From assembly GCA_028351415.1 (NCBI GenBank), contig JAOMJV010000011.1, positions 1 to 37,846 of the forward strand: a stretch of DNA of 37,846 nt, given 5' to 3'. Under the pieces are notes generated by a model. The model was given only the letters and a program-made list of their open reading frames with translations. It made no database searches and had not been told where the DNA came from. This document shows, one piece after another, positions 4,616-7,407 of this stretch. The DNA is from Candidatus Nitrosopumilus sp. Lineage in GTDB: Archaea; Thermoproteota; Nitrososphaeria; Nitrososphaerales; Nitrosopumilaceae. The position numbers and the translations under genes are program-made. Each line of letters opens with the position of its first letter. Position 1 is the first letter of the stretch.

Positions 4616-4744
4616 ATTTTTTAGTGATTCTTTCAGCCTAAATTTTAAAAATATATAAAAAAATTGACCTATGCGTGATTAATTATCGTCTCTTTGTTTT
4701 TAAGACCTTTTTTACGATTGAAATTTGTGTTGGAGAATAAAAAT

Positions 4745-5533
4745 ATGAATAATTTGAAATCTGAACTTATTGCATATTCTCCTAATGTAAATTCATTAAT
4801 GAAAATATCCCTTGTATTGATCTTCTTTACTATACTTTCTACGGCATTTGTTTATGCTGATGACTCTTCTTTTGATGTTCCATATACTACAACTGGTATG
4901 ACTATTACTGAAATTGAATCTGATACTGAATCCATGTCTTTGATATTTTCTGTTGATGTCCATGACTTGAATGGCACATTAAATGTTGTATTGGACCGCT
5001 CTTTCTTTGACTCTGTTTACAATAAAATTTACACTGATTTTATTATTTTAGCTGATGGGGATTATGCTTTGTTTGAAGAAACTGAGATAAATTCCAACAC
5101 TCGAACTTTGAGCATTACTGTTCCTTCTGGAACTGAAGATATAGAAATTATTGGTTCTATTCTTGATGCTTCTCTTCCAATAATTTTAGTTGATTCTGAT
5201 GAAAATAAATCACCATCTCATGTGATAGACAAAGCAGCAGCAGACAAAGCAGCAGCAGACAAAGCAGCAGCAGACAAAGCAGCACAAACACAATGTGGTC
5301 CTGGAACTATTTTGGAAGGCAATGCGTGTGTTCTTGATGATAGATGTGGTCCTGGAACTATTTTGGAAGGCAATGCGTGTGTTCTTGATTCAACTCTCGC
5401 AAAATCTTCAGCACCAATGGGATATACTAAAGAATTAATCATGAGTGTTACAATTACTTTAGGAATTGCAGGAATTGTTGGTATTATTCTTGCACTAGTT
5501 GCAAGAGCCAATAAAAATAAAAATAAAAACTAG
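4745..5533 (+). CDS. Secreted, C-terminally anchored protein with DKAAA and CGPGTILEGNACVLD repeats
   Basis: The family is not recognised. I place the start at the ATG at 4745; an upstream TTG at 4694 is in frame but lies too close to a TATA-like stretch (about 4648-4658) to be likely. An N-terminal hydrophobic segment ending in AYAD-like VYAD indicates export. A beta-rich domain of about 120 residues follows. Then come three Ala-rich DKAAA units, two exact copies of a 15-residue motif CGPGTILEGNACVLD, and a C-terminal membrane helix ending in a Lys/Asn-rich tail. This suggests a cell-surface protein held by its C-terminal helix, with disulfide-forming mini-motifs near the membrane. It converges on and overlaps the next gene by 4 bases. 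Confidence 0.7.
   Translation: MNNLKSELIAYSPNVNSLMKISLVLIFFTILSTAFVYADDSSFDVPYTTTGMTITEIESDTESMSLIFSVDVHDLNGTLNVVLDRSFFDSVYNKIYTDFIILADGDYALFEETEINSNTRTLSITVPSGTEDIEIIGSILDASLPIILVDSDENKSPSHVIDKAAADKAAADKAAADKAAQTQCGPGTILEGNACVLDDRCGPGTILEGNACVLDSTLAKSSAPMGYTKELIMSVTITLGIAGIVGIILALVARANKNKNKN
5233..5277 (+). repeat. Three tandem 15-bp units encoding DKAAA
   Basis: The unit gacaaagcagcagca is repeated in tandem inside the secreted protein gene, giving a short Ala/Lys/Asp linker. It is likely a slippage-prone microsatellite in a spacer. Confidence 0.7.
5294..5389 (+). repeat. Two identical 45-bp repeats (5294-5338 and 5345-5389)
   Basis: The two copies are base-for-base identical with a 51-base period. 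Each encodes the 15-residue Cys motif CGPGTILEGNACVLD. The 6-base spacer encodes Asp-Arg. Lack of any silent difference indicates a recent duplication. Confidence 0.85.
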
Positions 5534-6045
5534 TTACAGGATAATTCTTTATTTTTCATAATTTGATCCAATTCAAATCCTGACATTTGTATTGTATTTG
5601 AATATGGGATTATACCCATTATTGGAGTTTGAATCGTTACTAATACTATGAATTTGTTAGGATCTACTCTAATTGCACCTCCATCAAACTCATAATCTAA
5701 TGTCATGAACATATGTTGAGTTGCTTGAAATTCTTCAGTTGAAAAATTACCCTTTTCCACAATCGATGATTTTGGAGCAATATTTAATGAATTAGTTTCA
5801 AATTCTCCTATGTTTTTTTCATCATAAAATGATATTATTTTAAATTCTTGAAAACTTGTGGGAAATGGCATTGGATTACAAAATTCCACTTCTCCATTAT
5901 TTGACATTTCAAAAAATGAAAATTCTTCTACACTACTCCAATTATACTCCAATTGATTAGCTCCGATAATATTTAATCCTGAATATGCGAATGGGATGAT
6001 GATTGCAATTATTGCAATCAATGTAATTGCTGAATATCTATTCAT
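5530..6045 (-). CDS. Membrane-anchored extracellular protein of unknown function
   Basis: This 171-residue protein has one N-terminal hydrophobic helix (about 6-28) followed by a soluble, probably beta-rich domain with two cysteines (in EFCNP and the C-terminal LSCN). I do not recognise a family. Its ATG overlaps the stop of the upstream secreted protein gene (ATGA at 6042-6045), so the two are co-translated. Its 3' end overlaps the convergent repeat-protein gene by 4 bases. The arrangement suggests surface proteins that act together, but no role can be assigned. Confidence 0.65.
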   Translation of the reverse strand: MNRYSAITLIAIIAIIIPFAYSGLNIIGANQLEYNWSSVEEFSFFEMSNNGEVEFCNPMPFPTSFQEFKIISFYDEKNIGEFETNSLNIAPKSSIVEKGNFSTEEFQATQHMFMTLDYEFDGGAIRVDPNKFIVLVTIQTPIMGIIPYSNTIQMSGFELDQIMKNKELSCN

Positions 6046-6707
6046 ATTTCATTCTCTTTTTCTATTGGAAATGAGATGATTTTTTCATCTATTAAATATT
6101 GTAAATTTTGAACAAACATTTTGTCTGATATTATTCCCATCACCCATCCTTTTGCAATACTCTTAACCCATTCTGGAATATTTAATTTATCTATATTTTT
6201 TTCTGTAAATTCAAATGGTATGACGATTAGTTTTTTATCTACAATATTTTGAAATCCACTAATTAACATTCCATCTGTGAATTCTCCATTTATCCATTTT
6301 ACTACAACTGGTTGCATTGCTTCAGAAATACACATGTTGTCTGAATCTATTAAATTAAATTCTGCGGAAGTCTCTATTCCTAAATACTGAACATCAATGA
6401 AATATTGCCCTAATGGAAAAATATCTTTTTCAAATGCATGTAAAGATGGAATAGGATTTGATAATTTTTCTATTGGAATTGGTATGGCACTACTTGACCC
6501 ACCTGCACCATCTCTGATGTGAATAATTGCGGGATCTCCTGTTATTTCTGAAACTTCAATTGAATAAACTAATTTTTCACAATAGGTGTATGTTGTTTTT
6601 TCCATTATGATTGCAACTGATGGTTCTGCATATGCTGATGTTAAAACACCTGTAGTTCCCATTAACACCATGAAAAATATGAGTTTTTTTGAAATCATTA
6701 ATTCCAC
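6042..6707 (-). CDS. Exported protein with a C-terminal IPEWVKSIAKGW-type domain
   Basis: This 221-residue protein has a signal peptide (hydrophobic core near 8-25, AYAE at its end). A beta-sandwich-like domain follows, with two cysteines (TYCEK, NMCIS). The last 45 residues (IPEWVKSIAKGW...FVQNLQYLIDEKII) match a short helical module seen repeatedly in thaumarchaeal secreted proteins, where the usual form is IPxWIKNNAGWWA with SFVQGIQYLI. Here the module is diverged. It is translationally coupled to the downstream gene. The specific function is unknown. Confidence 0.68.
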   Translation of the reverse strand: MELMISKKLIFFMVLMGTTGVLTSAYAEPSVAIIMEKTTYTYCEKLVYSIEVSEITGDPAIIHIRDGAGGSSSAIPIPIEKLSNPIPSLHAFEKDIFPLGQYFIDVQYLGIETSAEFNLIDSDNMCISEAMQPVVVKWINGEFTDGMLISGFQNIVDKKLIVIPFEFTEKNIDKLNIPEWVKSIAKGWVMGIISDKMFVQNLQYLIDEKIISFPIEKENEI

Positions 6708-6779
6708 ATTTTACTTGATCAATAAAAATCTGAAATTTTTACTAAGGAATCTTTTTTAATCACTTTATTTCATTCAGAT

Positions 6780-6845
6780 TATCGCGTTCTCTGTGGAAAC
6801 AGATCTTTGAGTTGATGACTATGTTCATCACTCAAAGATGTTTTG
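6780..6845 (+). ncRNA. Candidate small structured RNA with two consecutive hairpins
   Basis: Hairpin 1 is 6790-6803: a 5-bp stem TCTGT/ACAGA closed by a GGAA (GNRA-type) tetraloop. Hairpin 2 is 6803-6839: 9 bp (ATCTTTGAG/CTCAAAGAT), one bulged T, 6 bp (TGATGA/TCATCA) and a 6-base loop; it shares one base with hairpin 1. A TATA-like TTTTTTAAT at 6752-6760 would place the transcript start near 6780, and a T-rich stretch follows hairpin 2. The downstream L15e gene has its own TATA-like box at 6924-6930, so this is unlikely to be its leader. It has no D box, so it is not a plain C/D sRNA. Confidence 0.42.
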
Positions 6846-6850
6846 ATTAA

Positions 6851-6951: not shown

Positions 6952-7407
6952 ATGCCTAGTTATCAAGATCAAACATGGATCAGACTCTGGAAAGAAAATG
7001 CACCAGAGTTACGTGAACGTGTAATTAGATGGCGTAAACAAAATGCAATTCTTCGTATTGATAGACCAAGTCGAATAGACAGGGCCAGAAGATTAGGCTA
7101 CAAAGCAAAACAAGGAATTGTTGTTGTTAGAATGAGAGTTGGAACTGGTGGTATGAGAAAACAAAGACCAACTGGTGGTAGAAGACCAAAACATCTTGGT
7201 GTTCTTAGAATTAAAGCTGATGACGATATGAAAACTGTTGCAGAAAGAAGAGTTCTTGAGCGTTATCCTAACATGAAACTTTTAGGTTCTTACTACATCT
7301 ATAAAGATGGAAAACACTATTGGTTTGAAGTTATTTTAGCAGATCCTGATCATCCTAGAATTGCTCAGGATAAAGAATTAAACAAACGAGTACCACGATC
7401 CGCATAG
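6952..7407 (+). CDS. rpl15e: 50S ribosomal protein L15e
   Basis: This is a 151-residue, strongly basic protein. Its N-terminal stretch WIRLWKENAPELRERVIRWRKQ, the core RPSRIDRARRLGYKAKQG, and GGRRPKHLG match the archaeal/eukaryotic L15e family, a large-subunit protein that binds 23S rRNA. Length is normal, allowing for a shorter C-terminus than eukaryotic eL15. The ATG start directly follows a TATA-like box by about 25 bases. The next gene begins one base after the stop. Confidence 0.95.
   Translation: MPSYQDQTWIRLWKENAPELRERVIRWRKQNAILRIDRPSRIDRARRLGYKAKQGIVVVRMRVGTGGMRKQRPTGGRRPKHLGVLRIKADDDMKTVAERRVLERYPNMKLLGSYYIYKDGKHYWFEVILADPDHPRIAQDKELNKRVPRSA

Follow-up and report, generated by a model that had tools for sequence, protein, structure and literature searches.

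A small-RNA gene conserved in four genera of Nitrosopumilaceae with near-perfect complementarity to the S-layer protein mRNA

Organization of the locus

The window (the whole stretch of 37,846 nt of Candidatus Nitrosopumilus sp. DNA that was analysed) carries a putative small-RNA gene at 6779–6847 on the plus strand, as bounded by covariance model R1 (61.7 bits, E 8e-11 in its own genome). On one side lies a divergent gene for a secreted protein (6042–6698, minus strand), a constant neighbour of the RNA without Pfam or NCBIfam match; on the other, the gene for ribosomal protein L15e (6952–7407, plus strand; PF00827) stands outside the RNA unit. Elsewhere in the window, an ORF at 4694–5533 contains AADK repeats and a duplicated CGPGTILEGNACVLD unit.

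The RNA gene is preceded by a TATA box, TTTTTTAA (6752–6759, plus strand), whose spacing to the RNA is fixed across relatives. From this spacing and a downstream T-run we infer a transcript extending from about 6781/6784 to about 6845. Its 5′ third is an antisense segment, GCGUUCUCUGUGGAAACAGAU (6784–6804, plus strand), complementary to the mRNA for this genome's own S-layer protein (SLP); a hairpin with a GGAA loop (6790–6803, plus strand; TCTGT-GGAA-ACAGA in the window sequence) lies inside it. Then comes a 15 bp 3′ hairpin (6803–6839, plus strand) made of arms 6803–6812/6830–6839 and 6814–6818/6825–6829, with bulge T6813 and loop 6819–6824, and finally TTTT (6841–6844, plus strand), kept in homologue alignments and probably marking the transcription end. 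An earlier note, which had seen only the letters, had proposed a new small RNA here, made of a GNRA-type hairpin and an adjoining 15 bp stem with one bulge, with a TATA-like box upstream and a T-rich stretch behind. For the window sequence all of these features held, and the proposal of a small RNA is now supported by comparative evidence, the transcript itself being inferred.

The divergent gene has a TATA-like box of its own (CAATAAAAAT on the plus strand; 6720–6729, minus strand) at a near-constant distance from that of the RNA. This spacing (6720–6759) is maintained in four genera and a conserved CTNAGNAATC lies between the two boxes, possibly a shared regulatory site. Separately, the C-terminal 40–70 residues of the divergent protein (IPEWVKSIAKGWVMGIISDKMFVQNLQYLIDEKII) match about 5–30 other places per Nitrosopumilaceae genome; this highly repeated domain is undescribed and has no Pfam or NCBIfam match.

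Conservation of the RNA gene and its promoter

When 95 genomes of the genus were searched at the DNA level, the block from about 6715 to 6812 proved conserved by itself and did not always lie beside L15e. Alignment of the homologues gave the consensus WUAUCGAGUUUUCUGCGGANRCAAACUC, followed by the hairpin CUCUUUGAGUG...CACUCAAGAG and the T-run. A covariance search across Nitrosopumilaceae, the check suggested by the earlier note, was run with model R1 and detected the RNA in 97 of 250 genomes, with one strong copy each: 68 Nitrosopumilus and the remainder in three further genera (g5 Nitrosarchaeum, g11 and g13). A second, weak match in one genome (G008, 27.8 bits) looks like chance. The same model found no small RNA outside these four genera in a 300-genome sample of the class, and no RNA-like element was present upstream of the best divergent-gene homologues in genera lacking the RNA. 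Two near-complete genomes of the same genus (G065 and G075) gave no match to the RNA, pattern matches there being unlike the RNA locus, and matched the divergent gene only weakly; they reflect either loss or an assembly gap. Viral mimics were also considered and rejected: 11 IMG/VR sequences match a 16-base core, none with the remainder of the RNA.

The promoter is part of the conserved unit: in 88 of 96 homologous loci, TTTTTA starts exactly 31 nt 5′ of RNA position 6 (RNA positions 6–25 correspond to window positions 6784–6803). Because promoter, 5′ segment and hairpin are kept as a single unit in relatives, the RNA can be assigned to the plus strand, which folding alone does not fix. Fixed TATA spacing, the T-run and persistence despite differing neighbours support an intergenic transcription unit of its own, although the transcript remains inferred. 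The gene does not appear to code for protein: no listed ORF of at least 60 aa runs across 6779–6847, the consensus lacks an ATG, and variation tracks pairing, not codons. As had been supposed, no known RNA family fits, since no Rfam 15 family scored above its gathering cut-off, even in a permissive search. The comparative evidence thus supports 6781–6845 as a new small-RNA gene that has a promoter of its own, does not depend on L15e and belongs to no Rfam family, with transcription inferred.

Independence from L15e was observed in synteny. Of 130 scanned loci, 122 have the divergent gene as a neighbour of the RNA, and 89 have L15e on the RNA's strand downstream, within the stretch read (some genomes being counted twice in both figures). 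Many genomes have unrelated genes, some on the opposite strand, between the RNA and L15e. In G007, L15e is 7 kb away without a second RNA copy, and the only copy stays with the divergent gene. G050 (loci L053/L071) retains the RNA with its TATA box, and the divergent gene was not found beside them. A leader or riboswitch of L15e therefore fails the test of a 5′ UTR position moving with the gene, and the earlier view that the structure is not needed for L15e held. As a side observation, locus L071 carries two opposite-strand ORFs between the RNA and L15e, one integrase/recombinase-like by eye, and integration beside the small-RNA gene is possible.

Secondary structure of the RNA

The window element folds better than its shuffles (z −3.0; 1 of 200 equally good), and so does its complement strand (z −3.5). 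Analysis of the homologues gave a mean z of −3.8 for the 3′ hairpin over 58 sequences and only −0.66, a weak fold, for the 5′ part. The base of the 3′ hairpin is paired in 88.7% of cells, against 33–57% when the arms are slid by 1–3 columns, and its apical part varies in sequence yet usually still pairs. Changes in this hairpin are mostly U-A/U-G, with two-sided changes at two pairs, and in a chimera test the native arms were only modestly better than swapped arms. The 3′ stem is kept in form, with few strictly two-sided changes at its base; the most telling compensatory changes are found not within stems but where the RNA faces the SLP mRNA.

The GNRA hairpin failed as a conserved structure. 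Its outer pairs are not conserved: only 2 of the 55 sequences form pair 13–24, and base 20 of the loop is variable. Most sequences can form a 3-bp core (14–16/21–23, UGC(GGAN)GCA), in which one pair is changed from C-G to U-A in five sequences. Two other 5′ helices, GAGUUU:AAACUC and GUUUUC:GGAAGC, are compatible with the alignment, but their covariation did not exceed that of shuffles and they were discarded. We conclude that the 5′ GGAA-loop segment is mainly an antisense segment and not a conserved stem.

Complementarity to the S-layer protein mRNA

A 14-nt reverse complement of the RNA (at most one mismatch) hit one further site in most RNA-bearing genomes, while the reversed-pattern control was almost empty. 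Of these second sites, 20 were read out, and every one lies in a sequence encoding the N-terminus of an S-layer protein. The frame opens with MNNEIGRKxTSLTLMTIM... and the site falls at F/Y-V-S-A-E-N-S/A. A site-bearing protein matched the solved chain 8c8k over 531 residues (E 2e-196), as did the product of the SLP gene of the window's genome (E 2e-62); 8c8k belongs to the N. maritimus S-layer depositions (PMC11153153), and we assign the target to the NmSLP, Nmar_1547 type. N. maritimus has two near-identical S-layer genes (PMC11153153); genome G006 also has two such genes, with the site in both. The site occupies nt 121–143 of the SLP coding sequence, directly after the signal peptide and over the first codons of the mature protein.

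In the window's own genome the SLP site lies on another contig, outside the window (C45:43275–43294, plus strand), and pairs with 19 of the 20 RNA positions 6–25, the sole mismatch being at 6798. The window RNA deviates from the consensus (GUUCUCUG); when the genome it comes from was searched, the SLP gene proved to contain the partner TCCGCAGAGAACGC, with a compensating G opposite the odd base C6789. The predicted duplex (−34.5 kcal/mol) is the best along the stretch of this mRNA scanned, where the median is −9.9 kcal/mol; RNA/SLP duplexes generally reach about −30 kcal/mol. Similarly, clades match their targets: RNAs with GCG... go with ...CGC (alanine) and those with GAG... with ...CTC (serine).

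Over 59 RNA/SLP pairs from four genera, 1129 of 1180 positions (6–25) pair, 1062 by Watson-Crick and 67 by G.U, leaving 51 mismatches. G.U combinations outnumber A.C (67 versus 14), as expected for RNA pairing. When the mRNAs were folded, the site came out somewhat more accessible than average in 27 of the 31 and did not pair with the SLP start region.

The target set of the genus was gathered with a pattern near the expected site, which favours matches; the broader pattern set and the near-complete assemblies are free of that bias. Among RNA-bearing assemblies of at most 10 contigs, the site is present in 25 of 26, the sole exception (G119) having a divergent RNA and no S-layer gene found in the assembly. 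Several near-complete RNA-bearing genomes lack a full SLP gene in the assembly and have no bearing on pairing. The divergent gene was rejected as a target: its 11-nt complement to the RNA consensus occurs only in the window's genome, whose RNA itself differs from the consensus, and is attributed to chance.

Joint changes in the RNA and its target

Two-sided changes between RNA and SLP were observed at positions 7 (A-U/C-G), 9 (U-A/C-G, in G035), 11 (U-A/C-G, in the window), 20 (A-U/G-C/U-A) and 24 (A-U/U-A). Position 20 faces the third base of the valine codon: among the 59 pairs, A stands opposite GTT in 23, G opposite GTC in 8 and U opposite GTA in 8, with mismatches in 20. Position 25 is mismatched in 20 of 59 pairs, which, like the mismatches at position 20, counts against the antisense reading.

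With all genomes, true partners paired better than swapped ones in 20000 of 20000 permutations, and likewise when only distinct combinations were used. Within one Nitrosopumilus clade, swapped targets reached the observed pairing in 2 of 20000 permutations. The 16 genomes of other genera alone gave a weaker result: swaps reached the observed value in 1407 of 20000 permutations for all pairs and in 187 of 20000 for Watson-Crick pairs. Relatedness was ignored in all these permutations. Independent pairs at position 20, taken on the divergent-protein tree, followed the predicted direction (3.1 versus 0.3, 3.9 versus 0.6 and 2.3 versus 0) but are too few for significance.

Codon usage at the target site

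In RNA-bearing genomes the site reads TCC GCA GAA/GAG AAC and only the valine and flanking codons vary; this set was chosen by pattern, the broader set being the fairer witness. In g14, g15, g16 and g18, where no RNA was detected, the same peptide is encoded with TCA/TCG/TCT/TCC and GCT/GCC/GCA. Further sites for the same peptide in RNA-bearing genomes also use other codons, for example TCA GCT GAA AAT; where identified, they belong to a shorter paralogue of about 1,060–1,130 residues. The contrast between RNA-bearing and RNA-less genera shows an RNA-target pair constraining synonymous codons. Independently of the RNA, SLP codons 2–8 (NNEIGRK; loci L167 and L196, for example) show almost no synonymous variation whether it is present or absent, a further constraint close to the start codon.

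Discussion

The conserved gene with its promoter, the near-perfect complementarity to SLP and the joint changes of both partners are shown by sequence comparison. Besides an intergenic transcription unit of its own and the lack of protein coding, conserved complementarity to an mRNA encoded elsewhere and joint changes are criteria of a trans-encoded base-pairing sRNA that the locus fulfils; a change in target output is inferred. We consider it likely (probability about 0.82) that the locus specifies a trans-acting antisense sRNA of about 65 nt that tunes SLP synthesis; transcription, the duplex in the cell, and the effect and its direction are inferred. In the proposed scheme, the TATA box at 6752 would drive a transcript carrying a 5′ antisense segment of 20 nt, ended and protected by the 3′ hairpin and T-run, and the antisense segment would pair with SLP mRNA at nt 121–143. 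The duplex would most likely lower SLP output by blocking elongating ribosomes, by exposing the mRNA to an endonuclease, or both. A direct block of initiation is unlikely because the site lies too far downstream of the start codon and is not paired with the start region. Within the pairing hypothesis the balance tips modestly towards repression, by analogy with MicC-ompD, the effect itself being inferred.

The main alternative keeps the same RNA and pairing but supposes that the duplex protects or activates SLP mRNA by masking a nuclease site. It is supported by pairing deep in the coding sequence, which gives no obvious initiation block, and by nuclease-site masking proposed for Methanosarcina mazei sRNA154 on nifH/nrpA (PMC5867862). 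Against it, every ribosome would need to remove a 20-bp duplex (about −30 kcal/mol), and MicC-ompD is a known case in which pairing within a coding sequence lowers expression (PMC11347162). We thus hold protection to be a serious possibility but the lesser of the two. A bolder version of the repression model, in which a dedicated sRNA co-evolved with SLP mRNA and slows ribosomes just past the signal peptide, is unlikely on present evidence; if true, it would tie S-layer synthesis to membrane targeting or to nutrient state, a level of gene control for which Thaumarchaeota offer no known example.

That the RNA acts mainly through protein binding or on another target, SLP complementarity being a by-product, is very improbable: the 3-bp core and the conserved 3′ hairpin are compatible with it, but in four genera the RNA is almost perfectly complementary to one and the same set of codons in one gene, changes on the two sides match, and the outer GGAA-hairpin pairs are not kept, all of which speaks against it. 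We also give very little credit to a DNA-level element without functional RNA (a regulator site, inverted repeat or double terminator). The hairpin is indeed nearly symmetrical and folds on both strands, but promoter spacing is fixed on one side, and departures from complementarity are mostly G.U, which pairs only as RNA. A cis-acting leader or autoregulatory element of L15e, suggested by the downstream same-strand L15e in the window and most loci, is refuted as a general role by the intervening genes and the distant L15e of G007, and is all but excluded. An archaeal C/D-box sRNA (C RUGAUGA, D CUGA) can be dismissed: the boxes are not conserved, UGAUGA occurring only in the window's clade, within a stem, where most homologues have GUGUGG, and Rfam snoCD11 scored 19.9 bits against a cut-off of 60.

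Marine ammonia-oxidising archaea, whose S-layer channels ammonium towards the cell (PMC11153153), are among the ocean's most abundant cells. The open-access literature searched contained no base-pairing sRNA with a target in ammonia-oxidising archaea and no sRNA acting on an archaeal S-layer mRNA. The result names one RNA and one mRNA and makes base-level predictions that can be tested in cultured Nitrosopumilus.

Trans-acting base-pairing sRNAs occur in bacteria and in a few archaea. M. mazei sRNA162 and sRNA154 are archaeal examples (PMC3510493, PMC5867862), and the present RNA resembles them in being intergenic, with its own promoter, and in pairing with mRNA encoded elsewhere. It differs in belonging to another phylum, without known sequence relation, in having one main mRNA target, and in near-perfect pairing over about 20 nt deep in the coding sequence, without masking of a ribosome-binding site. 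Haloferax volcanii sRNA132 and s479 are likewise archaeal regulatory RNAs from intergenic regions whose targets are known (PMC6560208, PMC8155600), but of another lineage and with other targets. Tan1 RNA of marine group II Euryarchaeota is also a conserved ncRNA of a marine planktonic archaeon (PMC5069720), but is 229 nt long, of unknown function and from another phylum. Salmonella MicC is comparable in that it targets the mRNA of an abundant surface protein (ompD) within the coding sequence, which there leads to RNase E cleavage (PMC3469820, PMC11347162); MicC, however, is bacterial, depends on Hfq and RNase E and pairs imperfectly, and there is no evidence of homology. Trans-acting sRNAs being a known kind, what is new here is a previously undescribed RNA with an unusually well-resolved partner.
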